Assembly (NCBI RefSeq): GCF_001591705.1
Contig: NZ_BCVK01000022.1
Span: 1 to 36,428, forward strand
Direction of reading: 5' to 3'
Length of the DNA: 36,428 nt
From: Lactococcus cremoris subsp. cremoris NBRC 100676
GTDB taxonomy: Bacteria; Bacillota; Bacilli; Lactobacillales; Streptococcaceae
Shown here: piece after piece, positions 16,429 through 36,199 of the stretch
How the letters are laid out: the number at the start of each line of letters is the position of its first letter
Numbering within the stretch: the first letter of the stretch is position 1
Position numbers and translations under genes: made by a program
Notes under the pieces: generated by a model
The model's input: the letters and a program-made list of their open reading frames with translations, nothing else
Told to the model about the DNA's origin: nothing
The model's database searches: none

Positions 16429-16463
16429 TTACTGACAGAAATATTTTTAATCTCTGTCAGTAA
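16429..16463. repeat. Inverted pair of the TTACTGACA repeat
   Basis: TTACTGACAGA (16429-16439) and TCTGTCAGTAA (16453-16463) form a perfect 11-bp inverted repeat with a 13-base loop, between the ACT and UPF0210 genes. On the minus strand no U-run follows, so strong termination is unlikely. A lone copy, TTCTGTCAGT, sits at 16502-16511 next to the ACT stop. Confidence 0.8.
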
Positions 16464-16514
16464 AAATGCTTAATAATAAAAGTAATTCGTCGACTAATTT
16501 TTTCTGTCAGTCAA

Positions 16515-16778
16515 TTACAATTTGTGCATCGCGTTAAAAATAGCTTCATTTTGAACATGAATATTAACGCCAAGTGCTTCACCTTTTCTTGAAAGTTCAG
16601 CTTGAAAAGCTGAAAAATCACTGTTTCTAGTTTCAACAACCATCATCATGGTAAAAGCTCCACTCATCAAAGTTTGTGAAATCTCAATGATATTTGCTTC
16701 TAATTCTGATAATGTCGCTGTGACTCCAGCGACAATACCGATTTTATCTGCTCCGACTACTGTTACAACTGCGCGCAT
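16515..16778 (-). CDS. ACT-domain protein (UPF0237 type)
   Basis: A single 87-residue ACT domain, a small ligand-binding module that usually senses amino acids. The N-terminus MRAVVTVVGADKIGIVAGVTATLSE has the Gly-containing loop where ligands bind in the family, and the ANIIEISQTLMSGAFTMMMVVE segment is the second strand-helix unit. It resembles the N-terminal half of GcvR. The start has GGAG seven bases upstream. It lies upstream of UPF0210 and probably acts with it. The gap between them contains ACTGACA repeats rather than a clear promoter. Confidence 0.88.
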   Translation of the reverse strand: MRAVVTVVGADKIGIVAGVTATLSELEANIIEISQTLMSGAFTMMMVVETRNSDFSAFQAELSRKGEALGVNIHVQNEAIFNAMHKL

Positions 16779-16913
16779 TTTGTTTCTCCATTCAAATTTT
16801 TATACTATTATAACATTTTTATTTAAATTTTCAGTCAATTTTCTTGTCAAGTAAATAAAGTTTTTTAGACAGCTTTGTCAGTACATTTGAATTATGTTTT
16901 ATCTCCCCTATTT

Positions 16914-16922
16914 TGCTATAAT
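16914..16922 (+). promoter_or_regulatory. Extended -10 box 9 bases before the prenyltransferase start
   Basis: TGCTATAAT is a perfect extended -10. Nine bases separate it from the ATG at 16932, giving a predicted 5' leader of only about 0-3 bases. No -35 is evident, which is acceptable for an extended -10. Confidence 0.55.
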
Positions 16923-16931
16923 CAGCTTATC

Positions 16932-17873
16932 ATGACTTTAAAAACTTTCTTTAATTTTACACGTATTCAAACTTTACCAGCGGCTTTGCTCTCACCAATT
17001 GCTGGCTGTCTTTTTGCTCTTTGGTATTTTAAAAGCTTCCACTTTTGGCCCACCTTTTTCTTTTTTATCGGTTTAGCTAGTATTAATCTTTTTGTCTCTG
17101 CTTGGAATAATTTAATGGATTATCAAAAAGCTCTTGACCCTGAATATAAAAAATGGAATATTATCGTTGCCAAATCAATTAATCCTAAACTTGCTTTAAA
17201 AATATGCTTGTCTTTCTTAGTTGTTGATGTAATTGTTGGACTAGTTGTTCTTTTCATGACTAATCTTGCTGTTCTTCCCATTGGTGGCCTTTGTTTTTTG
17301 ATTGCTATTTTCTATACCTATGGTCCTTTTGCCTTCTCTCGCTTTCCTCTAGGTGAACTTTTAGCCGGTCTTTGTGAGGGATTCTTTGGATTTTTCCTTG
17401 CGGTCTATCTTAATTCTTATGACAAAGGATATTTTTTCATTAGCTTTGACAAAAACTGGCTCATGACTTGGACTTGGGATTTTAAAATTCTTCTCCCAAT
17501 ACTTTTAGTCGGCTTGATGTGTTTTGTTCAAAATTTTAATATCATGTTTTCTGACAATATTTGCGATTTAGACCAAGACATTCGTAACGAGCGTTATACC
17601 CTTCCTTATTATTTAAAAATTCCACTGAGTTTAAAAATATTTACTGGACTTTATCTTTTTGCCGGGCTCTGTATTCTACTTGCTATTTGTCTCAAAATTT
17701 TACCCATTTGGTCACTACTCATGCTAATCATTTCAGTTAGAGTTATTCCTAATATTCAAAAATTCAGGGCAAAGCAAAGTAAATCAGAAACTTTCCATTT
17801 ACAGATTAACAATCTTATGCTATTTAATGCCTCACTTGCTATCACTCTTTTACTAGGTATCATTTTTAGATAA
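16932..17873 (+). CDS. UbiA-family prenyltransferase, MenA-like
   Basis: A 313-residue integral membrane enzyme that transfers a polyprenyl chain to an aromatic acceptor, likely in menaquinone synthesis. The two Asp-rich motifs of the family are present: NNLMDYQKALD at about residues 59-69 and DNICDLDQD (DxxxDxxxD) at 208-216. Eight or nine hydrophobic spans follow the usual pattern. An in-frame TTG at 16875 would add 19 residues but lies upstream of the -10. The ATG at 16932 gives the family N-terminus and has no ribosome site. It is one of only two plus-strand genes and converges on the endonuclease-family gene through a shared terminator. Which quinone or lipid it serves is not shown. Confidence 0.82.
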   Translation: MTLKTFFNFTRIQTLPAALLSPIAGCLFALWYFKSFHFWPTFFFFIGLASINLFVSAWNNLMDYQKALDPEYKKWNIIVAKSINPKLALKICLSFLVVDVIVGLVVLFMTNLAVLPIGGLCFLIAIFYTYGPFAFSRFPLGELLAGLCEGFFGFFLAVYLNSYDKGYFFISFDKNWLMTWTWDFKILLPILLVGLMCFVQNFNIMFSDNICDLDQDIRNERYTLPYYLKIPLSLKIFTGLYLFAGLCILLAICLKILPIWSLLMLIISVRVIPNIQKFRAKQSKSETFHLQINNLMLFNASLAITLLLGIIFR

Positions 17874-17875
17874 AC

Positions 17876-17899
17876 AAAAAAAGCGCTAAGCGCTTTTTA
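17876..17899. terminator. Bidirectional terminator between convergent genes
   Basis: AAAAAGCG-ctaag-CGCTTTTT with A and T runs on both sides. It serves the plus-strand prenyltransferase and the minus-strand phosphatase-family gene. Confidence 0.88.
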
Positions 17900-18955
17900 T
17901 TTTTCTAAAGAAAAGTCCATGAGAACTGGTTGATGGTCTGACGATTTAAATTGATTATCAATGGTTTGTATTTTTAAGTCTTTTATATTATTTGAAATAA
18001 GAAATCCGTCAATAATTCCAAAAGTATTTTTGGGATTTTTTTGATGATAAGCAAAATCAAGTGAGCGCACGGTTGGTGCATTAGTTGGTGCAACTACTCG
18101 CATTCCTTTAGTCAAATTCTCCGTTGGAAACTCCTTCATCCAAGTCAATTCTGGATGAGCTTTACCAGCTAGGGCATGATTATAGTCTGCTCCACAAATC
18201 ACATAATCCCCTTTATTGACATACTTTTTCATCGCATCAAAGAGTGTCACTAATTGTTGCTTTTGAATTTTTTGGTCTGTGATAAATGCTGATAAGTGAG
18301 TATTAAAAATTACAAACTTTTTATCCGAATTTTTGATAGGCAAAAGGCTGACAGAAAATGCCCGGTCTAAATCAAAAAATTTATTAAAGTTGGTTTCGAT
18401 TGGTAACTTATATCTGGTTGAATTTTCAATTTCATATTTAGAATAAGTCATAATGCCAGATTTGGCTTTTCCAATTGGTTTTGTCACGGGATAAAATAGA
18501 TAAGCAGAGTCATAGTTTTGCGTTAATACACTACTATAATCAGGAAGACCTGCGCGTACCAACTGAGGTTCATTCACCTGCTGACTTCGGTCTCCTTGCC
18601 AATCAATTTCTTGAATATTTCCGAAATCAGGATTTTCTTTTTTAATAAGTCTAATATCTTCTTGAATCGCAGACTTGACAGCAGATTTGCTGTAAGCATG
18701 CACATCATCTCCACCATCCATGAAAAAATTAAAAGAAGGTGGGTAGGAACCATAACCAATATTAAATGTCATCATTTTATAGGTTTTTCCCAATTCAACT
18801 TGTTGAGTTTGCGGATTTTTGATACTTTGCTTGATATCATTTGGCAGACGATGATATTGAGCATAGACATAAATAACGTATGAGCCGATGATGACAGCAA
18901 AAACTAAAATAATGCTGACAATAATTTTTCCAATTAATTTCAAACAATTTTTCAT
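17897..18955 (-). CDS. Endonuclease/exonuclease/phosphatase-family protein, membrane anchored
   Basis: A 352-residue protein with one N-terminal membrane span (about residues 6-31) and an extracytoplasmic EEP domain. The metal and catalytic motifs are all visible: MTFNIGYG (Asn), NIQEID (Glu), FNTHLSAF (His), GADYNH (Asp/Asn) and SSDHQPV (Asp-His). This fold includes secreted nucleases and sphingomyelinase-like or phosphoinositide-type phosphatases, so the substrate is open. A TTG at 18991 lies in frame with GGAG three bases upstream, but it falls inside a TTTACTGACA inverted repeat. The ATG at 18955 begins the typical charged-then-hydrophobic anchor, so I prefer it, although its ribosome site is weak. 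Confidence 0.8.
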   Translation of the reverse strand: MKNCLKLIGKIIVSIILVFAVIIGSYVIYVYAQYHRLPNDIKQSIKNPQTQQVELGKTYKMMTFNIGYGSYPPSFNFFMDGGDDVHAYSKSAVKSAIQEDIRLIKKENPDFGNIQEIDWQGDRSQQVNEPQLVRAGLPDYSSVLTQNYDSAYLFYPVTKPIGKAKSGIMTYSKYEIENSTRYKLPIETNFNKFFDLDRAFSVSLLPIKNSDKKFVIFNTHLSAFITDQKIQKQQLVTLFDAMKKYVNKGDYVICGADYNHALAGKAHPELTWMKEFPTENLTKGMRVVAPTNAPTVRSLDFAYHQKNPKNTFGIIDGFLISNNIKDLKIQTIDNQFKSSDHQPVLMDFSLEK

Positions 18956-18980
18956 ATTATTCACTAAATATTTTAGGAAA

Positions 18981-19017
18981 TTTACTGACAAAGACTCCGA
19001 AAATCTCTGTCAGTAAA
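18981..19017. repeat. Inverted pair of the TTTACTGACA repeat
   Basis: TTTACTGACA (18981-18990) and TGTCAGTAAA (19008-19017), perfect 10-bp arms with a 17-base loop; the inner AGA/TCT extends the stem after one mismatch. It lies between the isochorismatase-family and EEP genes. Confidence 0.85.
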
Positions 19018-19032
19018 CTGGGTGGCCTAAAC

Positions 19033-19620
19033 TTATTTACTTTCTTCAATCATTTTTACTACTTCTTGTGTTGAACGCACTCGTCCAAGTCTAGTGAAAA
19101 TTCCGTCCACAATTCCCTTGTGCAAACTTCCATTAAAATCAGTCATTGCATCTTCTACGGCAATCACTTGATAGCCATGTTGGAAAGCTTCACGAGCCGT
19201 TGTATCACAACCAATCGTTGTAGCAATTCCGCTCAGAACAATTTCTTCAATTCCACGGCGGCGCAATTGGACATCTAAATCTGTTCCATAAAAGGCCCCC
19301 CAGTTGTGTTTAGCAACATGGATAACATTGTCATAGTCTTTATCGTAAGCTTCTGGCATGACAAAATCAGAGAAGTCCGCTGGTATTTGCCCATGTGCAA
19401 GAGGGGGATTATCCGTTTTTGGTTTTAGAGCTTCTTCACCATAATTTTTAACATGAACAAAAACAATCAAAGCTTCTGTATTTTTTAAACTTGTTACGAG
19501 CTCTTTATTTTTGGCCAACACATCTTGTGCAGAATAAGGAGCAAAACCTTCACGACCAGCAATTCCTTTTTGCAAATCGATGATGACTAATGCTGTTTTA
19601 TTTAAATTCAAAGTTTTCAT
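19033..19620 (-). CDS. Isochorismatase-family cysteine hydrolase
   Basis: A 195-residue cytoplasmic hydrolase of the isochorismatase/nicotinamidase superfamily. The catalytic triad is visible: Asp15 in ALVIIDLQKG, Lys in HVAKHNWGAF, and Cys in ATTIGCDTTAR. The cis-peptide-type segment SGIATTIGC is also present. Substrate cannot be assigned; the metal-binding residues of true nicotinamidases (Asp-x-His-x-His) are not evident. A TTG at 19635 would extend it by five residues, but the ATG at 19620 follows a purine-rich GAAGAAGAA stretch. It starts 18 bases after the rnr stop and is likely co-transcribed with it. Confidence 0.85.
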   Translation of the reverse strand: MKTLNLNKTALVIIDLQKGIAGREGFAPYSAQDVLAKNKELVTSLKNTEALIVFVHVKNYGEEALKPKTDNPPLAHGQIPADFSDFVMPEAYDKDYDNVIHVAKHNWGAFYGTDLDVQLRRRGIEEIVLSGIATTIGCDTTAREAFQHGYQVIAVEDAMTDFNGSLHKGIVDGIFTRLGRVRSTQEVVKMIEESK

Positions 19621-19638
19621 TTCTTCTTCTTTCAAAAT

Positions 19639-22092
19639 TTAAGGTCTTTTGTGTGCTTTTTTTATTCCATCAGTAAATTTTTTGCCATTCTCTTTTTTGT
19701 CAGTAAATTTACCTTTGGCAGCTTTGCTATAAAAAGGTTTTTTGTCTGAATTTTTCTTTTTCTTATCAAATTCAGGTTTTTCATCAGTACTTCTACCCTC
19801 TTTTGATTTACTGCCAGCTTTACCAGCAGCTTTTGGTGCGACAGATTTAACTTTAAGGGATTGATTTGATTTTTTGCGACCTTTAGATTCAGGCTTTTTC
19901 TTAGCTTTAGCCGATTTATCAATCAAATCTAATTCTGATGGAAGGTACTCAAAGTCAATTTCGCCTGTCATCTTATCCGCTTTGACGACTTTGATTTTAA
20001 TTGGTTGACCAATTTTAAAAGTCAATCCTGTTCTTTCACCAATCAAAGCTAACATTCGCTCATGATAAGTGAAATAATCACCCTTCAACGTTGAAATATG
20101 AACTAATCCTTCGATTGTATTTTCAAGTTCAATAAACATACCAAAACGAGTGACTGAAGCAATAATTCCTTCAAACTCTTCGTCCACATGTTCTTCCATG
20201 AACTCGGCTTTTTTCATTTTTTCAACTTCACGTTCAGCATCAACCGCTCGACGTTCGCGATGACTAGAGTGCTCCGCAATTTCTGGGATTTTTTCTTCCC
20301 ATTTTTGTAAAAGATTTGCTGGAATTTTACCCGCACCAATTTCACGAATCAAACGATGAACCAACAAATCAGGATAACGACGAATAGGTGAGGTAAAGTG
20401 AGTATAATTTTCGGCAGCTAAACCAAAGTGACCCTCATTATTTTCTGAATAACGAGCTTGTTGCATACTACGCAATAGCATTGTTGACAAGACCATTTCA
20501 CCAGGTTGCCCCTTGATTTTTTTCATGAAGGCTTGTAAAACTTTTTGATCAATTCCGTTTGAGGTTCCTTCAATTTGCATTCCAAAAGTTGCTGCAAAAT
20601 CAATAAATCTTTGTAATCTATCTGCTTTTGGTTGCTCGTGAATCCGATAAATAAATGGCAAGCCATGTGCTTCAAAATGAGTGGCCACCGTTTCATTGGC
20701 TTCGAGCATGAATGATTCAATCATTCGTTCAGCAATGCCACGACTGCGTTTTCTAATTTCAATAGGTAAGCCTTTTTCATTTACAATGATTTTTGCCTCT
20801 ACCGTGTCGAAATCAATGGCTCCACGTTGTTTACGCATCGCTTCTAAAATATGATGGATTTCAACCATGATTTTCACAGAATCAGCAATTTTAGCATACT
20901 TTTCAAGCGTGTCTTTAGCTCCTGCAATCATTTGATTGACCGCATCATAAGTCATTCTTTCAGTTGTCTTAATAATTGATTGTGAAATTTGATAATTAAC
21001 CACTCGACCTTCTGGGCTAATTTCCATCACACAGGATTGAGTCAAGCGATTCAAACGTGGGTTCAATGAACAAATCCCATTTGATAAACGCTCTGGCAAC
21101 ATTGGTACCACTCTGTCAGTAACATAGACCGATGTTCCACGTTCGTAAGCTTCTTTATCTAAAGGTGAATTTTCCGTTACGTAGTGGGAAACATCCGCAA
21201 TATGAACACCTAATTCATAATTTCCATTTCCTAAACGTTTGGCATGGACAGCATCATCAAGGTCTTTGGCATCAGCTCCGTCAATTGTGAACGTAATTTC
21301 ATTACGATAATCAACTCGACCCGCAATTTCACTTTCTGGCACTTCTTCTGGCACTGAATCAGCTTGATCCAAAACTTCTTTTGGAAACTCTGATACAATA
21401 TCCATTGAAGTCAAAACTTCTAACACATCTATCCCTTGGTCATTTGCCTGTCCAATAATTTCCGTTACCAGTCCTTGCATGGTTTGAGGAAATTCTTTAT
21501 CAGGATAATGTGTGATTTCTACACGAACAATTGCCTTATTTTCTGGTTTGAGTCCTTCATCACCCAGATATACCCGATAAGGGATTTTTTTATTTCTAGA
21601 TTTAACGAAACCAATCAGTCCAGTTTGCTCTTTTTCTTCATCATTTAAAGCAACAAAAGTTCCAACGACTTGATGAAGCTCATGACGGATAATTTCAACA
21701 ACATGCCCCTCGGCAGCCGTTCCTTTTAGGGAGTTGGCATTCTTATCAATCTCAATAAAAACCTCATCTCCATCAAGTGCAAAACCTGTTTGCCCGCGTC
21801 CAATAAAGACGTCTGGTTCGTCAGCATCAATACTTACAAAACCAAATCCAGCCGCATTTGCTCGGAAAATCCCGCTGATAACTACTTTTGCTTCCTCTTG
21901 TTCTGCTAATTCTACTTTCCCTTTAGCAGTAAAATGAAGCAAGTGTTCAGCTTCTAGTGAAGCCAAAGTTTTAACAAAAACTTTGTAATCTTTGGCCTTA
22001 TTCATATGTAAAGCAACTGACAATTCTTCCACTGACAGAGCTTTTTTTGAACTATTCTCAAGATAGTCCATAATTACTTCTCTAATACTCAT
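19639..22092 (-). CDS. rnr: Ribonuclease R (RNB family 3'-5' exoribonuclease)
   Basis: Processive exoribonuclease that degrades structured RNA. The 817 residues match RNase R. Order: an N-terminal helix-turn-helix-like region (about 1-65), two cold-shock OB domains (about 70-220), the RNB catalytic domain with DGADAKDLDDAVHAKRL around 265-281 holding the Asp cluster, and an S1 domain (about 625-705, EFEGIIASVTRFGMFIELE). A Lys-rich, low-complexity tail of about 100 residues follows. The tail twice encodes KFTD, once from an exact TTTACTGACA copy. A frame to 22137 exists, but the ATG at 22092 gives the family N-terminus MSIREVIMDYL. secG lies upstream with its own terminator. Confidence 0.95.
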   Translation of the reverse strand: MSIREVIMDYLENSSKKALSVEELSVALHMNKAKDYKVFVKTLASLEAEHLLHFTAKGKVELAEQEEAKVVISGIFRANAAGFGFVSIDADEPDVFIGRGQTGFALDGDEVFIEIDKNANSLKGTAAEGHVVEIIRHELHQVVGTFVALNDEEKEQTGLIGFVKSRNKKIPYRVYLGDEGLKPENKAIVRVEITHYPDKEFPQTMQGLVTEIIGQANDQGIDVLEVLTSMDIVSEFPKEVLDQADSVPEEVPESEIAGRVDYRNEITFTIDGADAKDLDDAVHAKRLGNGNYELGVHIADVSHYVTENSPLDKEAYERGTSVYVTDRVVPMLPERLSNGICSLNPRLNRLTQSCVMEISPEGRVVNYQISQSIIKTTERMTYDAVNQMIAGAKDTLEKYAKIADSVKIMVEIHHILEAMRKQRGAIDFDTVEAKIIVNEKGLPIEIRKRSRGIAERMIESFMLEANETVATHFEAHGLPFIYRIHEQPKADRLQRFIDFAATFGMQIEGTSNGIDQKVLQAFMKKIKGQPGEMVLSTMLLRSMQQARYSENNEGHFGLAAENYTHFTSPIRRYPDLLVHRLIREIGAGKIPANLLQKWEEKIPEIAEHSSHRERRAVDAEREVEKMKKAEFMEEHVDEEFEGIIASVTRFGMFIELENTIEGLVHISTLKGDYFTYHERMLALIGERTGLTFKIGQPIKIKVVKADKMTGEIDFEYLPSELDLIDKSAKAKKKPESKGRKKSNQSLKVKSVAPKAAGKAGSKSKEGRSTDEKPEFDKKKKNSDKKPFYSKAAKGKFTDKKENGKKFTDGIKKAHKRP

Positions 22093-22151
22093 TTTTATTC
22101 TCTCAAGTAAGCTTCCTTGACCACAAAAATCGGACAAGAAGCCCCTTTCTT

Positions 22152-22157
22152 ATTATA
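22152..22157 (-). promoter_or_regulatory. Candidate rnr -10 box
   Basis: TATAAT on the minus strand, with a poor -35 (TCGAGC, 16-base spacer). The -35 lies inside the 15-mer shared with the ABC transporter region. The predicted leader of about 50 nt can form a stem, GCTTCTTG with CAAGGAAGC (one bulge). Confidence 0.5.
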
Positions 22158-22169
22158 ATATTTTTAAAT

Positions 22170-22184
22170 ATTGGCTCGATTTTT
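22170..22184. repeat. Exact 15-mer shared with 25829-25843, copy 1
   Basis: ATTGGCTCGATTTTT occurs here, at the -35 side of the rnr promoter, and at 25829-25843 upstream of the amino acid permease gene, in the same orientation. It may be an operator; no regulator is known. Confidence 0.5.
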
Positions 22185-22196
22185 AGCTAATATTCT

Positions 22197-22686: not shown

Positions 22687-22719
22687 AAAAAATTACTGAC
22701 TTCTTTGTCAGTAATTTTT
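22687..22719 (-). terminator. trxB terminator built on the TTACTGAC repeat
   Basis: AAAAATTACTGAC-ttcttt-GTCAGTAATTTTT, a 13-bp perfect stem with a T-run on the minus strand, a few bases after the trxB stop. Confidence 0.88.
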
Positions 22720-24839: not shown

Positions 24840-25727
24840 TTATGCTTGGTCAAACGGATTTTTACTCAAAGAAATTTGAGCACGATTTTTACGTTTATCA
24901 TTTGGCATTCTGACGTCCAACTTGCGCTCTAATGCTCTAATCAAAATTTCAAAAATGATACAGATTGGCCAATAAACCAAGGCTAAGGCCAAATAAGTTT
25001 CAAACAGTCGGAAAGTTGAGCCACCAATAATTTGAGCCCGAGCCGTCATTTCTACCACACCCGCAACGAAAGCGAGTGAAGTAGATTTCAAAAGACCAAT
25101 CAGAGCATTTCCTAACGGAGCTGTCGCAACTGTTGCCGCTTCTGACAAAGTGACACGCATAAAGACTTGGAAATTCGTCATTCCAAGTGATTTAGCCGCT
25201 TCAATTTGTCCTTTATCTACCGATTGGATCGCTGCTCGAATAGTTTCTGAATTATAAGCCCCTTCATTAAGGGCAAAGGCCACAATTACAAAAAGCATTG
25301 CCGGAATCGTGTTCACATTATAATTCGTTCCATAGTTCATATTGATTGCTTTTAAAATCAGTGGAATCCCTGTATAAGAAAGATATAATTGCACCAAAAT
25401 TGGCGTTCCACGAATAAAGCTGACAAATAAAGCACGAAGTTGATTTAAAATAGGAATTTTATTGATACGAACTAAGGCAAGAATAAGTCCCAAAAGCAAA
25501 CCAAAAATCATGGCAATGATTGTCATTTCAAGTGAAGATGGAATCATTTTAATAATTGGTACAAAGGCGTCCACAAAGGCTGACCAACTGAAAATCTTTG
25601 TGAAAAACATTGTCCAAAAGTCATGAAAGTTGTACTGACCTTTAATTAAGAGAAATGGAAGAGCTGGCAAAATGATAAGTGCCAAAAGTAAGGCAATTCC
25701 AAGAATTATTTTTTTGTTTTTTTTCAT
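24840..25727 (-). CDS. Amino acid ABC transporter, permease
   Basis: A 295-residue inner-membrane permease of the HisMQ type. It has about six hydrophobic spans; the first (about 7-28) may act as a signal anchor. The EAA loop that contacts the ATPase is clear: EAAKSLGMTNFQVFMRVTLSEA near 182-203. The ATG has a poor ribosome site (AGAAAA). It is preceded by 268 bases containing two ACTGACA-type hairpins and a possible TATAAT at 25865-25870, so it may be partly uncoupled from the binding-protein gene. Eleven bases separate it from the ATPase gene. Confidence 0.92.
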   Translation of the reverse strand: MKKNKKIILGIALLLALIILPALPFLLIKGQYNFHDFWTMFFTKIFSWSAFVDAFVPIIKMIPSSLEMTIIAMIFGLLLGLILALVRINKIPILNQLRALFVSFIRGTPILVQLYLSYTGIPLILKAINMNYGTNYNVNTIPAMLFVIVAFALNEGAYNSETIRAAIQSVDKGQIEAAKSLGMTNFQVFMRVTLSEAATVATAPLGNALIGLLKSTSLAFVAGVVEMTARAQIIGGSTFRLFETYLALALVYWPICIIFEILIRALERKLDVRMPNDKRKNRAQISLSKNPFDQA

Positions 25728-25751: not shown

Positions 25752-25782
25752 AAACTCTGTCAGTAAAAAAGTGACAGAGTTT
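25752..25782 (-). repeat. ACTGACA-type hairpin before the permease gene
   Basis: AAACTCTGTCA (25752-25762) and TGACAGAGTTT (25772-25782), a perfect 11-bp stem with a 9-base loop, 24 bases upstream of the permease ATG. On the minus strand only four T residues follow, so termination would be leaky at most. It includes an exact TGTCAGTAAA at 25758-25767. Confidence 0.75.
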
Positions 25783-25843: not shown

Positions 25844-25913
25844 TACCTTACCATCACTTCTACTATTATACAAAATTTTGGCCTTTTTTTCTCCTATTTT
25901 TTACGAATAGAGC

Positions 25914-25956
25914 TGTCAGTAAATTGATGAATTATAAAATATTTATTTTACTGACA
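25914..25956. repeat. Inverted pair of the TTTACTGACA repeat
   Basis: TGTCAGTAAA (25914-25923) and TTTACTGACA (25947-25956), exact 10-bp arms with a 23-base A/T-rich loop, 39 bases after the stop of the binding-protein gene. Confidence 0.85.
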
Positions 25957-25995: not shown

Positions 25996-26844
25996 CTATT
26001 TAAACATCTCAGCTTTTGGGACGAAATCTCCACCAAGATATTTCTTAGAAATCTTAGCCAAGCTACCATCAGCTTGCATTTTAGCTAATACTCCATTCAC
26101 ATCTTTTTGAAGCTTTTGCCCTTCTTTATCTTTACCAAAAAGGAAATATTCATAACCGTCATGTTCAGCATCGCCAGTATCCATACTGATATCTTCAATT
26201 TTTAGATTATCAAATCCTTGTTCTTTAACAGCTGACTGTAAAGAAATTTTATCATAAAGCATGAAATCAATCTTACCTGATTCTACTTGTGTGAAACGAG
26301 TATTAATAGAAGTGGAATCTGCTGAGTAACTAATTTTAATTTGCTTATCTGGATTGGCTTTGTTCCAATCTTGAATTGATTTTGTATAATTTGAAGCTGG
26401 ATTACCAATTGTTGATTTTCCAGCCAAATCTGCCAAGGTTTTATAAGTTCCAGATTTCACAAGAACAGCGTTATTAGATTTGGAAAGTGGTGATGAGAAA
26501 TAGTATTTTTCAGCTCTGCTTTTTTCCCAACCAAAATCATTAGCACCCATTTGATATCGACCAGAATCAATCCCTGGCGCAATTCCAGAAAAGTCTGTGG
26601 CTTGAAATTTCACAGTGTATTGCGGCAATTTTTTGAAGACAGCACGAGCGACTTCAATATCATAACCAGTTAAATTTCCTTGACTATCTGAATAAGTAAA
26701 TGGTTTTGTTGCACCATCTGTCGCAATTACAATTGATGTTGTTTTATTATCTGACGTCTTTTTTGAACCTGAGGAGCATGCAACCAAAGTTCCAGCAGCG
26801 ATAAGTGAAAGAGCAGCAAATGTGACCTTTAGTGATGTTCTCAT
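25996..26844 (-). CDS. Amino acid ABC transporter, substrate-binding lipoprotein
   Basis: A 282-residue family 3 solute-binding protein anchored to the outer membrane face by lipid. The signal peptide ends in a lipobox, TLVAC, with the lipidated Cys at position 23, then a Ser/Lys linker. The domain has the usual TKPFTYSDSQGNLTGYDIEVARA start and the RYQMGANDFGWEKSRAEKYYFSSPL segment. The ligand is a polar amino acid or cystine-like compound; which one cannot be told. GGGG lies before the ATG, and a promoter is visible at 26876-26904. It is first in the operon. Confidence 0.92.
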   Translation of the reverse strand: MRTSLKVTFAALSLIAAGTLVACSSGSKKTSDNKTTSIVIATDGATKPFTYSDSQGNLTGYDIEVARAVFKKLPQYTVKFQATDFSGIAPGIDSGRYQMGANDFGWEKSRAEKYYFSSPLSKSNNAVLVKSGTYKTLADLAGKSTIGNPASNYTKSIQDWNKANPDKQIKISYSADSTSINTRFTQVESGKIDFMLYDKISLQSAVKEQGFDNLKIEDISMDTGDAEHDGYEYFLFGKDKEGQKLQKDVNGVLAKMQADGSLAKISKKYLGGDFVPKAEMFK

Positions 26845-27688: not shown

Positions 27689-29356
27689 CTAAAATAATCC
27701 TGAGATTTTACCATCATCAGTCACGTCCATTTTTAAAGCAGCAGGATTTTTGGGCAGACCTGGCATTGTCATCACATCTCCTAAAAGAGCAACAATAAAT
27801 CCAGCACCGATTTTCGGAATCAGCTCACGCACTGTAACCTCAAAGCCTTCGGGAGCTGCTAAAAGATTCGCTTGGTCTGAAAATGAATACTGCGTTTTAG
27901 CCATACAAACTGGTAAGTTATTCCAACCATTTTCTTCAATTTCTCTCATCTGACGCTTAGCTTTCGGAGATAAATTAACTTTGGAACCGCCATAAATTTC
28001 TGTCACAACTTTGTCAAGTTTTACTGACAAGGGTTGATTTAGCTCATAAAGATAACGAAAATCAGGTTTTGCTTGTAACATTGCTGACAGTTTTTCAGCT
28101 AAATCTAAACCACCTTCGCCACCTTTAGCAAAAACTTGAGTTAGTGAAACTGAAACTCCCAAAGCTTCTGTCAGTTCTTTTAAAGTTGAAATTTCTGACT
28201 CTGTATCCGATGCAAATTGATTAATCGCTACAATCACTGGCAGGCCATAACTTTGCATGTTTTTGATATGCCGTTCCAAATTAGCAAAACCTTTTTTAAC
28301 AGCCTCGACATTTTCACTTGTCAATTCTTTCTTATCAACGCCACCGTGCATCTTAAGCGCACGAAGCGTAGCCACAACTACCACAGCATCAGGTTGTTTC
28401 CCTAACTGACGTGTCTTGATATCCAAAAATTTTTCACCACCAAGGTCAGCTCCAAATCCTGCCTCTGTAATGACAATATCAGCCAATTTAAGTGCTGTTT
28501 TTGTTGCTAAAACAGAATTACATCCATGGGCAATATTAGCAAAAGGTCCACCGTGAATTAAAGCTGGTGTTCCTTCAATTGTTTGAACAAGGTTTGGTTT
28601 AAGGGCATCTTTTAAGAGCATTGCAATTGCCCCCTGAACCCCTAAATCTCCGACACTGACAGGTTTACGGTCATAATTTTGAGCGATGACAATTCTTGCT
28701 AAACGCTCTTTCAAATCACTGATAGAAGTCGCCAGACAAAGAACAGCCATAATTTCGCTAGCCACTGTAATATCAAAACCATCCTCACGAGGAACCCCAT
28801 TAAGCGGTCCTCCCAGTCCAATCGTTACATGACGTAAAGCACGGTCGTTCAAATCAAGCACACGTTTCCAGATAATTCTTCGTGGGTCAATATTTAAAAG
28901 ATTCCCTTGATGAAGCGAATTGTCCAGAAAAGCCGAAATTGCGTTATTAGCCGTTGTAATGGCATGAATATCTCCTGTAAAATGAAGATTAATGTCTTCC
29001 ATTGGAAGAACTTGAGCAAATCCACCACCAGCTGCTCCACCTTTAATTCCCATGACCGGACCAAGAGAAGGCTCTCGTAGAGCAACCATTACATTTTTAT
29101 CTTGTCTGGCAAAGGCATCAGCAAGCCCCACTGTCACCGTCGATTTACCCTCACCCGCTGGTGTAGGGTTAATAGATGTTACTAAAACCAATTTCCCATC
29201 GGTTTGTTCATCAAACTTTTCTAACACTTCTAAGGGAATTTTAGCCTTATATTTCCCGTAAAGTTCAATATCGTCAAAAGATAATCCTATTTTTTCGGCA
29301 ATTTTAGTAATTGGTTGAATTTCAGCAGCTTGGGCAATTTCAATATCTGTTTTCAT
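27689..29356 (-). CDS. fhs: Formate-tetrahydrofolate ligase
   Basis: It makes 10-formyl-THF from formate, ATP and THF, supplying one-carbon units for purines and formyl-Met. The 555 residues match the family. The ATP-binding loop [14 protein letters not shown] is at about 65-78, [21 protein letters not shown] at about 92-112, and a second signature [14 protein letters not shown] near 265-278. GGAG lies before the ATG. It is monocistronic, with a terminator at 27584. A PurBox and an extended -10 promoter upstream indicate control by PurR. Confidence 0.97.
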
Positions 29357-30373: not shown

Positions 30374-30416
30374 CTTTTCTCCTTTTGAGGCTTTCTAAAT
30401 TGCCTTCATTTATTCC

Positions 30417-30425
30417 ATCATATCA
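30417..30425 (-). promoter_or_regulatory. Promoter of the ASCH gene
   Basis: TGATATGAT on the minus strand is an extended -10, 43 bases upstream of the ATG. The -35 is weak (AGTCAA at 17 bases). Confidence 0.5.
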
Positions 30426-31394: not shown

Positions 31395-31444
31395 GAAACT
31401 TTACCTCATCTCTGAAAAGATGGAAGGAAAGTTTATCTAAAATA

Positions 31445-31475
31445 AAAAAAAGCTTTTGAATAAGCTTTTTTATTT
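31445..31475 (+). terminator. Terminator after the DUF3862-like gene
   Basis: AAAAAAGCTT-ttgaat-AAGCTTTTTT followed by ATTTT on the plus strand. It lies about 50 bases after the final stop of the disrupted frame. Confidence 0.8.
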
Positions 31476-31530
31476 TCAGAAATAACAGAAGATGGAAAAC
31501 TCTTCTAATAAAATAGAACTTGAGTGATAA

Positions 31531-31561
31531 AAAATAGACCTTCTAAAGGTCTATTTTTTTT
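31531..31561. terminator. Bidirectional terminator between the DUF3862-like gene and deoD
   Basis: AAAATAGACCTT-cta-AAGGTCTATTTT, a 12-bp perfect stem with A and T runs on both sides. It can end deoD transcripts on the minus strand and any readthrough on the plus strand. Confidence 0.85.
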
Positions 31562-31601
31562 AAGAAACAGAAATTTACTTAGCTTGAGAATTAACTCAAC
31601 T

Positions 31602-31611
31602 TGTCAGTAAA
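31602..31611. repeat. Single TGTCAGTAAA copy after deoD
   Basis: An exact copy of the 10-mer 18 bases downstream of the deoD stop. No inverted partner is close to it. Confidence 0.6.
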
Positions 31612-31628
31612 ACAAAGCTCTAAATTAA

Positions 31629-32333
31629 TTATTCAGCAATCAAAGTTTCCAAACCAACTTTCATCATATCTGTAAATGTCAATTGACGTTCTTCAGACGT
31701 TGTTGATTCTCCTGTCAAAATATGGTCAGAAATTGTCATAATTCCCAAAGTTTGCACTTTATATTTTGCCCCAAGATAATAAAGACCAGCTGCTTCCATT
31801 TCGACAGCCTTCACACCGAGTTTTCCAACTTTAACTGCATCTGGTCCACCATAGAACAAATCAGAGCTGAGAATATTTCCAACGTGAGTTGTAATTCCGA
31901 GGTCTTTTGCAATATGATAAGCCTTATCAAGCAAATCAAAATCAGCAATTTGCGGGAAATCAAAATCAGGAAAATCATGACGGACAATGGCTGAAGTTGT
32001 TGCTGCTGCCTGACCAATGACAAGGTCGCGAATATGAACATCTTCATTTACAGAACCAGCAGTCCCAACACGAATTAATCTTTTAACGCCATATTCCGTA
32101 ATCAATTCATTAGCATAGATTGAGATTGAAGGAATTCCCATTCCTGTTCCCATGACAGAGACACGGTGGCCTTTGTAAGTTCCAGTAAAGCCAAGCATTC
32201 CGCGAACTTGGTTAAATTGCACAGCATCTTCAAGGAAGTTTTCTGCGATAAATTTTGCGCGAAGTGGATCTCCTGGTAAGAGAATTTTATCTGCGATTTC
32301 GCCTTTTTGAGCTTCGATATGTGGTGTTGGCAT
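31629..32333 (-). CDS. deoD: Purine nucleoside phosphorylase, DeoD type
   Basis: It splits purine nucleosides into base and (deoxy)ribose-1-phosphate in salvage. The 234-residue protein begins [32 protein letters not shown], typical of hexameric DeoD. It contains [18 protein letters not shown] (phosphate site), [10 protein letters not shown] near 180 and the catalytic Asp in [10 protein letters not shown] near 204. AGGAA precedes the ATG. It is third in the cluster deoB, zinc-ribbon protein, deoD; the product ribose-1-phosphate is the substrate of DeoB. Confidence 0.95.
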
Positions 32334-32368
32334 TTTTAATTTCCTTTTCTTTTAATATAATTATCAAA

Positions 32369-32394
32369 TTTACTGACAGAATTTTCGTCAGTAA
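32369..32394. repeat. TTTACTGACA inverted pair between zinc-ribbon gene and deoD
   Basis: TTACTGAC (32370-32377) and GTCAGTAA (32387-32394), 8-bp arms with a 9-base loop. The left arm extends to an exact TTTACTGACA (32369-32378). Confidence 0.8.
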
Positions 32395-32403
32395 GTTAAG
32401 AAC

Positions 32404-32673
32404 TTAATTTTTCCAGCGTTTCAAACCTTTGAGTTGCATTGGATAAAGTTTTTTGAAAAGCCATTTTTGCATTTTAGGCATTGGATTATTATCCAAACCT
32501 TTTCGTCCAATTTCAACCATTTCATCAAAAGTAAGATCTGGTTTAACAAAACGACCTTGCATATAGCAATAGATACAATATTCTGTTGAAAATTCGCCGT
32601 TTGCTTCTGTTCCTTTGTAAGAATCATCAGCGATTGGCATTCCGCAAGATTGGCAAAATGCTTTTTTAGCCAT
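32404..32673 (-). CDS. Small zinc-ribbon protein
   Basis: An 89-residue protein with a four-Cys zinc-binding site: Cys7 and Cys10 in FCQSCGMPI, Cys33 and Cys36 in EYCIYCYMQG. A helical region (TFDEMVEIGRKGLD) and a basic tail rich in Lys follow. It fits the putative zinc-ribbon family (Pfam Zn_ribbon_2 type), often of unknown role. The frame reaches 32724, but the ATG at 32673 gives the family start MAKKAFCQSCGMP. Its ribosome site is weak. It sits between deoB and deoD with an ACTGACA dyad on each side. Confidence 0.8.
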   Translation of the reverse strand: MAKKAFCQSCGMPIADDSYKGTEANGEFSTEYCIYCYMQGRFVKPDLTFDEMVEIGRKGLDNNPMPKMQKWLFKKLYPMQLKGLKRWKN

Positions 32674-32693
32674 AAATAGATTTTTCTTTCTGC

Positions 32694-32720
32694 TTCTGTC
32701 AGTAAAATTGACTGACAGAA
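32694..32720. repeat. ACTGACA inverted pair between deoB and the zinc-ribbon gene
   Basis: TTCTGTCAGT (32694-32703) and ACTGACAGAA (32711-32720), perfect 10-bp arms with a 7-base loop, ten bases after the deoB stop. It includes an exact TGTCAGTAAA at 32697-32706. There is no U-run on the transcribed strand. Confidence 0.85.
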
Positions 32721-32730
32721 TCACTTTATT

Positions 32731-33966
32731 TTAAACTAACGCATCCAAGAATGATTCACCCGTTTGAGCTTTTTTAACAGAGAAGTTTTCAGCAATAGTT
32801 GCTGAAATGTCAGCAAAATGTCCCACAGGTAAAACTTTAGGTTCTTTAAATGATTTAGAGAAAATTACGAGTGGAATATATTCACGAGTATGGTCAGTTC
32901 CTACGTATGAAGGGTCATTCCCGTGGTCAGCAGTAATCATCAACAAATCATCTTCATTCATTGCATCAATGATTTCTGGCAAGCGACCATCAAAGTCTTC
33001 AATTGCTTTTCCGTAACCTTCAACATCGCGACGATGTCCATATTTAGCATCGAAATCAACTAAGTTTGTAAAAGAAAATCCTTCAGTAAATTCAGTTTTC
33101 GTCATTGCTTTAAGTAGACGGTCAACCCCATCCATATCATTATGGTTATGACCCATATCATATTTAACACCTACTGTGTTGAAAATATCTGAAATTTTTC
33201 CGACTGAGTAAGTATCAATCCCTGCCTTGTAAAGTTTTTCTAATACAGTTTCAGCAAATGGTGAGAGCGCATAGTCACGACGTCCATCAGTCCGTTCAAA
33301 GTTTCCGGCTTCTCCAACATAAGGACGAGCAATAATTCGGCCAATCATGATTCCAGAACCTTCTAGGGTAATTGAACGAACATATTCACAAATTTTATAA
33401 AGTTCTTCACGAGAAATAACATCTTCATGTGCAGCAATTTGTAAAACAGGGTCAGCTGAAGTATAAATAATCAACTCTCCAGTTTCCAATTGACGAGGGC
33501 CGAAATCTTCAATGACCGCTGTCCCAGAATAAGGTTTATTCGCTTCACGAATGATTTTACGACCAGAAAATTCCTCAATTTTTTCAAGTAAATCTTCTGG
33601 ATATCCTTCTGGATAAGTTGGGAATGGCGTTTGAATATTCAAGCCCATAATTTCCCAGTGCCCAGTCATTGTATCTTTACCTTTTGAAATTTCTTCAAGT
33701 TTTGTGACATAAGCTGCTGGTTTTTGTGCAGCAGGAATCGTTTTGAGTGGACTTTCACGCGGGATATTTCCCCAACCTAATTTTTGAAGATTAGGCACAT
33801 CAAGTCCACGAATTTCTGAAATATGACCAATCGTGTCTGATTTCACATCATTAATTGCTTCATGCGTTTCAACGTCATGATTAAAGAATTTGTCAGCATC
33901 TGGTGCAGCACCAATTCCGACAGAGTCCATTACAACAAGATGAATACGACCAAATTTTTTAGGCAT
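32731..33966 (-). CDS. deoB: Phosphopentomutase
   Basis: It interconverts (deoxy)ribose-1-phosphate and -5-phosphate, linking nucleoside salvage to the pentose phosphate pathway. The 411 residues are close to the usual length. Metal and phosphate motifs of the alkaline phosphatase superfamily are visible: [15 protein letters not shown] at 11-25, [13 protein letters not shown] at about 96-108 with the phosphorylated Thr, [12 protein letters not shown], and [21 protein letters not shown] near the end. GGAG precedes the ATG. A TATAAT at 34017-34022 with a weak -35 is the likely promoter. It is first in the cluster with the zinc-ribbon gene and deoD. Confidence 0.96.
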
Positions 33967-34112
33967 TATATCTCTCCATTTCTGATGCTATATCAATAGC
34001 AAAACTAACTAATTCTATTATACATAAACTATCCAAAAAAGGGCAGTCAAAGCTGTTAAGAAAAAGACATTCTTTTTGCCAAAAATTGCTTTTTTTAATA
34101 AATAGATGTCAT

Positions 34113-34146
34113 AAAAAAATCATTGGATGCTTGACCAATGATTTTT
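34113..34146 (-). terminator. Terminator after the LCP-family gene
   Basis: AAAAATCATTGG and CCAATGATTTTT with an 8-base loop, followed by a T-run on the minus strand, 7 bases after the stop. Confidence 0.88.
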
Positions 34147-34152
34147 ATCTTT

Positions 34153-35073
34153 TTATTTTAAACTTTCTTGAAATTGTTCTTTAGCCAAATCGAGATTTGC
34201 TTGTGAAATCGCAGTGACTTCTGACTGACCTGCTACTTTGCTACTGTGGATATTAATTTTTTTAATACTTATTGCTCCATGGTAATTTAAAGCTAAAGCC
34301 TTAACATTTCCAAAATTAAAAGTAGTTTTAAAAACCTTAGGAAAGACTGTCAAAATTTGACCATAATGTCTGATTAAAAGCAGCGGACTTTTGAGTTTGC
34401 TGATAACTGCCATTACAACTTCTTGCTGACGTGCAAAATCTTTTTTTGTATCTCCGGTATTTAAACGAGTGAAATAAGCTGCTACTTCCTTGGTATTGTT
34501 TAAGGCAACGGTTCCTTGAGGAAACTTGAAACCTTGGGCAGTAAATTCATTAGCATTCTGAATAGATACACCACCAATGGCCTGAACTAATTCTCCCATT
34601 TGGTCTAAATCAATTCTTACAAATTTATTGGTCTTAACCTGAAGAAGCTTCTCCATCTCTTTAATAACCGCTGCTTCTCCCCCAGAATTATAGAGAGTCA
34701 GTAAACTTTGATTGTCTGGCAGCAGAGCACTTGTCGAAAGATTGATAACCGTCGTTTGTTGCAAACGCGGATTCGTCGCTGCCATATCTGCCGAAACTAA
34801 GACGTCTTTCCCATCAATTTTACTTATTCCAAGAATGGCCGTCGTAAACGCCTCCTTCTTTTTTAAGGAAACAGAAGTCATTTGCGTTGGCGGATTCACA
34901 TAAGCCTTCGTTACAGCTGTTTTCACATCAAAATAAACTTTTCCACCAACAGCGCCTATAAGAAGGACCAAAAACAAAAGCACAGCCAAAATTATTTTTA
35001 AAGTAGGTCTTTTCTTTTTTTTAGCTCCACGTTTTAAGTGACTGTCATTTTCTGCAATTCTGGATTTACTCAT
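34153..35073 (-). CDS. LytR-CpsA-Psr (LCP) family protein, divergent
   Basis: A 306-residue membrane protein with a basic cytoplasmic N-terminus (AKKKKRP), one span at about 24-44 and an extracytoplasmic LCP domain. LCP enzymes attach teichoic acids or polysaccharides to peptidoglycan. The second half keeps typical features (IDLDQMGELVQAIGGVSI, AAYFTRL and DFARQQEVVMAV, each with an Arg). The first half is unusual: the common G-D-R/RSD-T and SIPRD motifs read AILGISKIDG, SADMAATNP and NLSTSALL, so one conserved Arg-Asp pair is missing. It follows the TagB-like gene by 10 bases, so it belongs to the same envelope operon. Confidence 0.8.
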   Translation of the reverse strand: MSKSRIAENDSHLKRGAKKKKRPTLKIILAVLLFLVLLIGAVGGKVYFDVKTAVTKAYVNPPTQMTSVSLKKKEAFTTAILGISKIDGKDVLVSADMAATNPRLQQTTVINLSTSALLPDNQSLLTLYNSGGEAAVIKEMEKLLQVKTNKFVRIDLDQMGELVQAIGGVSIQNANEFTAQGFKFPQGTVALNNTKEVAAYFTRLNTGDTKKDFARQQEVVMAVISKLKSPLLLIRHYGQILTVFPKVFKTTFNFGNVKALALNYHGAISIKKINIHSSKVAGQSEVTAISQANLDLAKEQFQESLK

Positions 35074-35083
35074 TTTATTCTCC

Positions 35084-36199
35084 TTAACCTGCCATTATTG
35101 ATTCAATCAAATCTAAGACTCGATCCGTTGATTTTCCATCTCTAAATTTATACATTTTGTCAGTAAATCGTTGCCGTTTCAAATTATCATTCTCTGTTTC
35201 ACCATTAACAGCCGTGATTGCTTTAATTAACTCATCTTCATTTTTAGTAACTTGACCTGGAAATTCATTTTCATAATCAATCGTAAATCCCGGCTTATGC
35301 GAATAGGTCATTAAATCAGGACTATAAGCAATAATTGGTTTATTAAATACCATCCAATCAATTGCAATCGCCGAATAATCTGTCACTAAAATATCTGTCA
35401 CACAAAAAAGTGAAGAAATCAATTCATCTTGAATATACAAAACATGTTCATTTTTTTCATAATTTGAATGCTGAATAAGCGGGTGGCTTTTGTAAATAAT
35501 AAGATAATCATTTCCAACTGCCTGATGAACCTTCTCTAAATCAATTAGTGCTTCTTTAAAATGCGTACTAATTCGTCCTCTAAATGTTGGCGCATAAGTA
35601 ATAATTTTCTTTCCCTTTAAAAGAGGATATTTTTCTAGTAATCTCTGAGAAGTCTGGTCAACAAATTTTTGGTCAAAAATCTTATCATTATTTGGAATTC
35701 CAGTCACAAAGACTTGAGACTCTGTCACATTAAATGCACGCGCAAAAATTGGTTTTAAAAAATCAGAGTTAGCGATTGTATAATCATAATGATTAACGAT
35801 ATAATCTCGTTCCACATCATTTCCAAATTTTTTCAATGCGCCTGTCGCATGCCATAACTGCAAGACTTTAACATTCTTACGATGTGGAAACTTGGAAACA
35901 ACAAAATTATTATAATCAATAATGACTAAACGTGAACTCTCAATTAAAAACAACTGACGAATACAAGCATAGCCATATTTTATGTTTCCCCAAAGAGAAG
36001 ATTCAAATTTGAACAAAACCGTCCGCAGTTCATATTTATCTTTTTGCTTCAAACGGTCATAAATTAACTTAAAATCTTTTGACAAATTACCATGCTCCAA
36101 AGAAATAAAAGTAATCCGATTCTTCTTCACCCTCATAATGAAGGCAAAAGGATAAAAAATTCCAAGAATTATTGTCAAAATAATTGATTTAGTTTTCAT
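35084..36199 (-). CDS. CDP-glycerol glycerophosphotransferase family protein, TagB-like
   Basis: A 371-residue membrane-associated transferase that likely adds glycerol-phosphate or ribitol-phosphate units to a lipid-linked teichoic-acid precursor. An N-terminal hydrophobic helix (about 4-21) is followed by the family domain with QLWHATGALKKFG near 125-137 (the catalytic His), ITYAPTFRGR, IIYKSHPLI, and DILVTDYSAIAIDWMVFNKPIIAYSPDL. The ATG at 36199 has GAGG at seven bases; a frame to 36241 would overlap the upstream gene more. It overlaps that gene by 11 bases. A TTTACTGACA copy encodes FTD in its C-terminus. Confidence 0.85.
   Translation of the reverse strand: MKTKSIILTIILGIFYPFAFIMRVKKNRITFISLEHGNLSKDFKLIYDRLKQKDKYELRTVLFKFESSLWGNIKYGYACIRQLFLIESSRLVIIDYNNFVVSKFPHRKNVKVLQLWHATGALKKFGNDVERDYIVNHYDYTIANSDFLKPIFARAFNVTESQVFVTGIPNNDKIFDQKFVDQTSQRLLEKYPLLKGKKIITYAPTFRGRISTHFKEALIDLEKVHQAVGNDYLIIYKSHPLIQHSNYEKNEHVLYIQDELISSLFCVTDILVTDYSAIAIDWMVFNKPIIAYSPDLMTYSHKPGFTIDYENEFPGQVTKNEDELIKAITAVNGETENDNLKRQRFTDKMYKFRDGKSTDRVLDLIESIMAG

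Follow-up and report, generated by a model that had tools for sequence, protein, structure and literature searches.

Introduction

According to the available excerpts of two studies, published uptake sequences combine a conserved core with dialects and are also used as terminators (PMC12616744, PMC1852404). In the Pasteurellaceae, the uptake signal sequence (USS; AAGTGCGGT / ACAAGCGGT) has a core of 9-12 nt, occurs in hundreds of copies on both strands and in coding as well as intergenic DNA, forms inverted-pair terminators, carries an AT-rich extension around a conserved inner core and shows phylogeny-following dialects (excerpts of PMC12616744 and PMC1852404). The DNA uptake sequence (DUS) of the Neisseriaceae (GCCGTCTGAA) displays features of the same type, including inverted-pair terminators, is enriched in tail-to-tail spacers and is bound by a receptor, the minor pilin ComP. 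HIP1 of the cyanobacteria, a fixed 8-bp palindrome linked to methylation, is likewise a clade-limited and highly iterated word of coding and non-coding DNA. Here, we analyze an element of Lactococcus that may belong with these systems, starting from contig NZ_BCVK01000022.1 of Lactococcus cremoris subsp. cremoris NBRC 100676 (positions 1 to 36,428, all of which were analyzed and are referred to as the window), in which the 10-mer TTTACTGACA is strongly over-represented.

The Lactococcus element resembles the USS in all of the features listed above, and the DUS in its USS-type features, its inverted-pair terminators and its enrichment in tail-to-tail spacers. Unlike the USS, it has a different sequence and belongs to a different phylum, its role in uptake is a proposed one, its copies tend to be spaced by whole helical turns, and it forms short palindromes in several species. 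Its core word, ACTGACAG, differs from the DUS, with which it shares at most CTGA, and its reader is only a candidate, in contrast to ComP. From HIP1 it is distinguished as a 7-bp quasi-palindrome with dialects and helical phasing.

An earlier note on this DNA held that no such sequence had been described for lactococci. However, gtcagtaa/ttactgac, an 8-mer that lies within the present element and represents the same motif, had already been published by 2008 (PMC2526093). In the available part of that study, Dressaire et al. report it from downstream regions in L. lactis, citing Mrazek 2002 for its highly repetitive nature and Redon 2005 for mRNA destabilization. The motif is read there as a downstream, mRNA-level element, and its coding excess, dialects, clade limit and phasing do not appear in that part of the paper; these aspects are new as far as our literature search reached. 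None of the matches listed in that search proposed an uptake role, dialects or phasing for the Lactococcus motif.

Results

The 10-mer is part of a longer, highly abundant element

All 12 exact copies of TTTACTGACA reported in the earlier note were recovered at the same positions, and its estimate of well under one copy by chance was borne out by 100 dinucleotide-preserving shuffles of the window, which contained 0.11 copies on average and at most 1. Its count of nine intergenic copies proved to be an upper value: seven of the 12 lie outside every called open reading frame (ORF), with a range of 7 to 9 that depends on two ORF starts. The copies at 18981 and 32697 fall within the 5' part of ORFs with TTG/GTG starts, and those at 19698, 28020 and 35158 are located inside genes. 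These and all other gene counts rest on our own ORF calls.

The genome containing the window (G000; 2.34 Mb, 122 contigs) harbors 462 copies of TTTACTGACA (243 forward, 219 reverse), compared with 18 (9 + 9) of the reversed word. Whole-genome pattern counts were made for all 18 genomes of the genus. The remaining analyses used samples, comprising 420 kb of G000 (window included), 400 kb each of G007, taken as the L. lactis type strain, and G001, 140 kb each of G016 (L. taiwanensis) and G009, 80-100 kb of G002 (L. fujiensis), G003, G004, G005 (L. hircilactis), G006, G011, G012 and G013, and up to 40 kb of G008, G010 and G017 (L. termiticola), while G015 was represented by its com regions only and G014 by no sample. 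In the 420 kb of G000, the 102 copies of TTTACTGACA far exceed the 7.9 expected under a 4th-order Markov model. The strongest words in the same comparison were TTACTGACAG (120 vs 4.7 expected) and TACTGACAGA (95 vs 3.4), which also lead in G007, with TTTACTGACA behind them.

The 10-mer is an off-centre part of a longer element that approximates AAAwTTACTGACAGAa. Base frequencies around ACTGACAG read approximately aAAAtTTACTGACAGAa.tTtT in non-coding copies and follow the same pattern, more weakly, in coding copies, with the AT-rich flanks of the extended consensus present in both. Within this element, the inner bases vary least: among single-base variants of TTACTGACAGA, TGACA is altered in 17 cases in G000 and 15 in G007, and the last two positions in 80 and 61, compared with 77 and 108 perfect copies. 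Whole genomes contain 445 (G000), 676 (G007), 638 (G001), 684 (G011) and 527 (G005) copies of TACTGACAGA, as opposed to 0-5 of the reversed word. G000 and G007 share 85.8% DNA identity over 55.7 kb.

The motif is enriched on both strands of genes and only partly forms terminators

When synonymous codons were shuffled within genes, leaving the proteins unchanged (60 shuffles each for 348 genes of G000, 292 of G007 and 285 of G001), the observed copies greatly exceeded expectation in both orientations. TACTGACAGA occurs 20 times along and 6 times against the gene in G000 (0.7 and 0.2 expected), 21 and 15 times in G007 (0.8 and 0.3) and 22 and 18 times in G001 (0.7 and 0.6); for ACTGACAG, the G000 counts are 43 in the same and 28 in the opposite orientation (4.4 and 2.7). 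Such an excess in both orientations rules out that the motif is purely a terminator or mRNA element. Rule-based classification of the sampled ACTGACAG copies in G000 assigned 40 of 115 non-coding copies to hairpins with a T-run, 28 to hairpins without a T-run and 47 to the unpaired class; among 86 coding copies, 66 were unpaired and five had a hairpin with a T-run. In G007, hairpins with a T-run account for 33/115 non-coding and 9/95 coding copies, and 71 of these 95 coding copies are unpaired. Most G000 copies therefore lack a hairpin with a T-run, so that the motif is not confined to U-run terminators. The two outcomes that the earlier note had named as refuting its observation, a genome-wide count close to the Markov expectation and a restriction to such terminators, were thus both absent. 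Its use as a terminator is real but partial, and it acts as DNA, not as RNA.

The motif is more common at the 3' ends of genes. Its density per kb in G000 is 4.8 in convergent spacers, 2.2 in tandem spacers, 0.32 in divergent spacers and 0.23 inside genes, with similar values in G007 (4.5, 1.8, 0.39 and 0.28), whereas in G001 tandem spacers come first (1.7), followed by convergent spacers (1.2), divergent spacers (0.65) and genes (0.39). These densities rule out an operator-like promoter element. No replication-strand bias was detected in 400 kb each of G007 and G001 (leading/lagging 103/107 and 114/119), which rules out a polar chromosome motif of the KOPS (FtsK-orienting polar sequences) or Chi type.

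Neighbouring copies are helically phased

Measured from centre to centre, neighbouring CTGACAG cores tend to be separated by about a multiple of 10.3 bp (20-21, 30-31, 40-42, 51, 72 and 81-82 bp), and those of tight dyads by 9, 11 or 12 bp; this clustering is seen in all relative orientations. For 387 pairs from six genomes at distances of 14-130 bp, a test from which 17 pairs with similar flanks were removed, the Rayleigh value reached 110 at a period of 10.35 bp (R 0.53), compared with a maximum of 9.3 in the jitter null. G000 and G007 alone gave 58.5 (181 pairs, R 0.57). Among 58 control heptamers from the same DNA, each with at least 25 pairs and, among those listed, with fewer pairs than the motif, the highest value was 4.6 (31 pairs, R about 0.39). 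Phasing is present in same-orientation, +- and -+ pairs, both inside and outside genes, and extends to 300 bp for pairs not within one gene, whereas inside genes it fades past about 100 bp (duplicates kept). Duplicated DNA and codon periodicity were rejected as its cause, because the signal survives the flank filter, the jitter, the comparison with control heptamers and the split into coding and other pairs.

Genomes with other dialects show the same behavior for their own cores (G009, 68 pairs, value 15; G012, 87 pairs, 20; G013, 39 pairs, 14), although these counts include tight dyads and the corresponding control words had too few pairs. In the window, 13 neighbour distances do not exceed 130 bp; nine of them deviate from a whole number of turns by no more than a quarter turn, the exceptions being 24, 15, 38 and 16 bp. 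The phasing signal is statistical, and it is most simply explained by a reader that detects several copies along the same side of the duplex.

The motif is limited to a clade within Lactococcus and varies in dialects

Two scans, each an even draw of 295 genomes from a larger group, covered the family and the order. Outside the genus, all 277 sampled family members had 20 or fewer copies of TTTACTGACA, and in the order scan the other 294 genomes each had two sites of the palindrome TGTCAGNNCTGACA at most. Within the genus, TACTGACAGA reaches 182 copies in L. taiwanensis (G016), 73 in G013, 35 in G012 and 28 in L. fujiensis (G002), with at most 8 in the others apart from the five genomes rich in this word. 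The palindrome TGTCAGNNCTGACA has a different distribution, with 705 sites in L. hircilactis (G005), 494 in G013, 376 in G011, 349 in G001 and 71 in G002, followed by 20 in G007, 18 in G015, 16 in G000, 12 in G016, 4 in G012 and 0-1 in the remaining eight. TGACAGWWCTGTCA peaks in G009 (309 sites, with no more than 15 in any other genome), and TTRCTGACGRA occurs 476 times in G012, 163 times in G000, 150 times in G007 and at most 81 times elsewhere; reversed controls gave 0-1 for the palindromes and 4-16 for TTRCTGACGRA.

A midpoint-rooted ComGA tree of 16 genomes separates the ten sampled motif bearers, including the weak G015, from the motif-free G003, G004, G006, G008, G010 and G017. G000 was dropped from this tree (its 263-aa frame is below the 280-aa cut), and G014 was not sampled; a ComEC tree was less suitable, being spoiled by truncated ComEC in G003 and G000. 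G015 (85% complete) carries the motif weakly and G014 (71% complete) shows none. The motif-free sister clade may comprise L. garvieae and its relatives. Together, these patterns indicate that a conserved core with dialects following phylogeny is present in Lactococcus.

Other repeated words were also observed. In 100 kb of G011 (pieces L126-L130), AAGTGCGTGC / TAGCACGCAC and CTCCCACTGA are each spread over 9-10 half-kilobase bins, and the G007 sample (L044-L063) is enriched in GCGCGTGA (16 vs 2.1 expected), which we take to contain the lactococcal Chi site.

Phages and plasmids are poor in the motif, and sites turn over mostly by substitution

Six Lactococcus phages (199,865 bp) contain 4 copies of TACTGACAGA and five Lactococcus plasmids (308,097 bp) contain 2, whereas about 130 would be expected in these 11 records (507,962 bp) at the density of G007 and about 1 from the reversed-word background. 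The plasmids were picked largely via one lactose plasmid and the phages via one P335-type phage, so that this is not a broad sample. A similar contrast is given in the available part of Dressaire et al. (2008; PMC2526093), with the motif in 19% over the IL1403 genome and in 4% of phage, prophage and transposon genes.

Alignable DNA amounted to 127.6 kb in four genome pairs (G000-G007, 55.7 kb; G001-G011, 23.6 kb; G001-G007, 26.8 kb; G000-G016, 21.6 kb); the samples of two further pairs had no overlap. Copies of both genomes were counted, so that a shared copy counts as two. Between G000 and G007, 32 of the 61 ACTGACAG copies have an intact counterpart, 21 carry 1-4 substitutions and 8 lie in gaps, compared with 12/28 intact and 1 in a gap for eight control words. 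Over all four pairs, 62 of 132 copies are intact, 51 are changed by substitutions only and 19 lie in gaps, and none of the 12 copies in the G000-G016 pair (76% identity) is intact. Sites are gained and lost mostly by substitution in place and are kept little better than other words, as would fit a drive towards the word rather than the conservation of single sites.

Competence genes in motif-bearing and motif-free genomes

The competence genes of G000 look decayed: its ComEC has 472 aa compared with about 737, the comGA frame is damaged near its start, and no ComGD frame of at least 70 aa is found (pieces L173, L190). In G005, the comG operon is broken just after the start of comGC (L178; 8.2 kb examined), yet this genome has the most palindromic copies (705). 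In G001, ComGB is split into two open frames of 275 and 92 aa in different reading frames (L174). As a check for motif decay where com genes are broken, we compared the excess of one-mismatch and perfect ACTGACAG copies, whose ratio is 0.84 in G000, 0.64 in G007, 0.98 in G001, 0.70 in G011, 0.38 in G005 and 0.73 in G016.

The frame after ComGF, apparently ComGG, has about 55-60 residues, with an N-terminal helix but without a head, in all four of G004, G006, G008 and G010 (L177, L179, L181, L183), as opposed to 76-123 residues in ten motif-bearing genomes. Since motif-free G017 has about 77 residues, this length is a confounded lead to the receptor. In the available part of a study on pneumococcus, the two tip pilins ComGD and ComGF both bind DNA, and the residues are said to be conserved in L. 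lactis (PMC12040237). According to excerpts of another report, natural transformation of L. lactis works with a 3.7-kb PCR product of chromosomal DNA carrying rpsL* from IL1403, whereas linear plasmid DNA gave no transformation in KF147 (PMC11244767). The 3.3 kb around rpsL in the L. lactis type strain contain four ACTGACAG cores.

Sites in the window

The copies and pairs in the window are as follows.

8829..8847: inverted pair CACTGACAGCTTGTCAGTG, 3' of dnaK, outside the interval 16429..35167 covered by the earlier note
16431..16464: inverted pair; ATTACTGACAGA on the + strand with the core ACTGACAG at 16431, and TTTACTGACAGA on the - strand at 16455-16464
18981..19017: inverted pair of exact TTTACTGACA copies, + strand 18981-18990 and - strand 19008-19017, core centres 22 bp apart
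19698..19707, - strand: exact copy in the ribonuclease R gene (19639-22137)
21113..21120, - strand: ACTGACAG core (TTACTGACAGAG) in the ribonuclease R gene
22688..22719: terminator-like hairpin 3' of trxB, stem AAAAATTACTGAC / GTCAGTAATTTTT
25758..25767, - strand: exact copy (TTTACTGACAGAG) beside the imperfect inverted partner gtgacagag
25914..25956: pair of exact copies in the same spacer, - strand 25914-25923 and + strand 25947-25956
28020..28029, + strand: exact copy in the formate--tetrahydrofolate ligase gene
31602..31611, - strand: exact copy, intergenic and unpaired, 3' of the purine-nucleoside phosphorylase gene
32369..32378, + strand: exact copy (TTTACTGACAGAA), intergenic, upstream of the purine-nucleoside phosphorylase gene
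32694..32720: inverted pair, stem TTCTGTCAGT / ACTGACAGAA, downstream of the phosphopentomutase gene, with an exact copy at 32697-32706 on the - strand
35158..35167, - strand: exact copy in the 3' part of a TarF/TarL-like teichoic acid transferase gene (35084-36241)

The core centres of the pair at 16431..16464 are 22 bp apart, or about 2 helical turns, and a third core follows 50 bp further on the - strand (16504-16511). Copy 18981 falls in the 5' TTG extension of the ORF at 17897-18991, and the pair at 32694..32720 overlaps the 5' part of the ORF at 32404-32724. The spacer that holds the copies at 25758 and 25914..25956 lies between the start of an amino-acid ABC permease gene (24840-25727) and the end of a substrate-binding protein gene (25996-26844); the core centres of the latter pair are 38 bp, or 3.67 turns, apart and hence out of phase. 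More cores within the formate--tetrahydrofolate ligase gene are centred at 28087, 28171 and 28659.

The gene names dnaK and trxB given in the earlier note agree with NCBIfam, and no Rfam family matched the window at gathering scores. Adjoining dnaK, at 6896-8740, there is a 614-aa reading frame with no NCBIfam match at 1e-10. Four bases ahead of the copy at 25914, TACGAATA occurs at 25902-25909, which we take to be the streptococcal ComX-box core; no + strand gene was called just behind it. Elsewhere in G000 (piece L042, 15908-16125), four same-orientation cores with spacings of 81, 81 and 55 bp are found at and just beyond a gene end, possibly as a tandem repeat.

Discussion

Among the explanations considered, an uptake-sequence-like self-recognition signal kept by biased natural transformation accounts best for these observations, and we see the case for it as evenly balanced. 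The likeness to the uptake sequences of Haemophilus and Neisseria drawn in the earlier note extends to most of the sequence features tested, from over-representation on both strands, coding excess and inverted pairs, some of them terminators, to AT-rich flanks, a fixed core with phylogeny-following dialects and depletion from phages and plasmids; the uptake role itself we infer. In this scenario, the competence apparatus of L. lactis and its close relatives would prefer DNA with (TT)ACTGACAG(A), most likely read by the tip of the type IV competence pilus, with ComGD and ComGF as candidate DNA-binding minor pilins. DNA bearing the word would be taken up and recombined more often, so that the word would accumulate by biased replacement wherever the sequence tolerates it, in genes, between genes and on both strands. 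Two copies that happened to meet in inverted orientation could then be reused as terminators. A receptor with two or more contact points along a single face of the duplex would favour neighbouring copies at whole helical turns, and it is tempting to speculate that a tip carrying two pilins that bind DNA would give an advantage to paired copies separated by one or several turns. Finally, the taste of the receptor may drift and the genome slowly follow, giving rise to dialects. We infer that the reader is the uptake machinery and that biased transformation is the driving force, and the proposed identity of the reading protein has the same standing.

Several observations weigh against this reading. 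ComEC is present in 17/18 and a ComGA-like ATPase in 18/18 genomes of the genus, and comG genes also occur in the motif-free clade. Competence genes were therefore rejected as a predictor of the motif, as they do not separate motif-bearing from motif-free species; with com genes also present in motif-free relatives, the shared machinery would have had to acquire its specificity. G000, with its truncated ComEC and damaged comGA and comGD, still has 445 copies of TACTGACAGA, and G005, with its interrupted comG operon, has 527, so that the motif may be a legacy in these genomes. The same 3.3-kb rpsL region that holds four cores in L. lactis has 0 ACTGACAG cores in G000. ComX-induced strains have perhaps been transformed with plasmid DNA, in which case the need for the motif would be at most partial. 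The failure of plasmid DNA in KF147 was seen, according to the available excerpts, under carbon starvation and not forced ComX induction, and may have other causes (PMC11244767). The 6 copies of TACTGACAGA on phages and plasmids are above the background of about 1. In several species, moreover, the element mainly takes the form of a short palindrome, with 349-705 sites in four genomes, and we know of no uptake sequence of this kind. Lastly, a DNA-coating protein would explain the phasing and the dyads as well.

Such a protein, a chromosome-organizing or nucleoid-associated factor of the L. lactis clade that assembles along one DNA face, is the main alternative, which we consider rather unlikely. 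Weak selection on site density would maintain its sites, and cooperative binding would favour whole turns, in line with phasing in all orientations and to about 300 bp for pairs not in one gene. The quasi-palindromic dyads of several species suit an oligomerizing DNA-binding protein, and the motif persists in genomes with damaged competence genes. However, a roughly 30-fold coding excess in both orientations and the high turnover between two genomes at 86% identity, where 29/61 copies are altered, call for a strong force acting across the genome, and no candidate protein is known from a search that covered com genes only. The scarcity of the motif in divergent spacers and its depletion from phages and plasmids are neutral between this protein and an uptake signal. 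Depletion from phages and plasmids would also fit a self-marking signal by which a defence, repair or restriction-related system spares motif-bearing DNA. We regard this as improbable, since the motif lacks the strand bias of the polar Chi and KOPS motifs and the presumed Chi-containing word enriched in G007, GCGCGTGA, is a separate one.

A spreading family of intrinsic terminators, which the earlier note had offered as an alternative, or an mRNA-destabilizing element would account for the enrichment at the 3' ends of genes and in the convergent spacers of G000 and G007, for the 40/115 non-coding G000 copies that form hairpins with a T-run, and for the destabilization for which Dressaire et al., in the available part of their paper, cite Redon 2005 (PMC2526093). 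It fails as a full account, because in-gene copies far exceed expectation on both strands and are mostly unpaired (66/86 in G000, 71/95 in G007), and because helical phasing also holds for same-orientation pairs, for which RNA folding offers no explanation. We therefore hold it to be refuted as the sole explanation and most doubtful in general terms, although it can apply to the paired intergenic subset. The high copy number, the intergenic inverted pairs and the 19/132 aligned copies in alignment gaps would be compatible with a mobile or inserted small repeat, such as a miniature inverted-repeat transposable element (MITE) or a repetitive extragenic palindrome (REP). This candidate was rejected on the alignment of orthologous sites in 127.6 kb from four genome pairs, with 51/132 copies differing by substitutions only and 62 intact, and on the end of conservation at the core and AT flanks; copies also occur inside genes, and we deem such an origin extremely improbable.

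At its fullest, the uptake-signal reading would make the Lactococcus element the first known uptake-sequence system outside the Neisseriaceae and Pasteurellaceae and in a Gram-positive bacterium, with a receptor that reads several copies on one DNA face at whole turns, perhaps via two minor pilins, and with different dialects in related species. We put this extended claim forward tentatively, as one that may well hold yet falls a little short of an even prospect. As a physical hint at what reads the motif, the phasing keeps its value should a chromosome protein turn out to do so. If the uptake-signal reading is true, a harmless and transformable food bacterium would carry an uptake motif, thereby breaking the limit of these signals to the Neisseriaceae and Pasteurellaceae. 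The genus would then offer an independent case of how uptake signals arise and change dialect, and the motif might be relevant to the choice of effective donor DNA for L. lactis.

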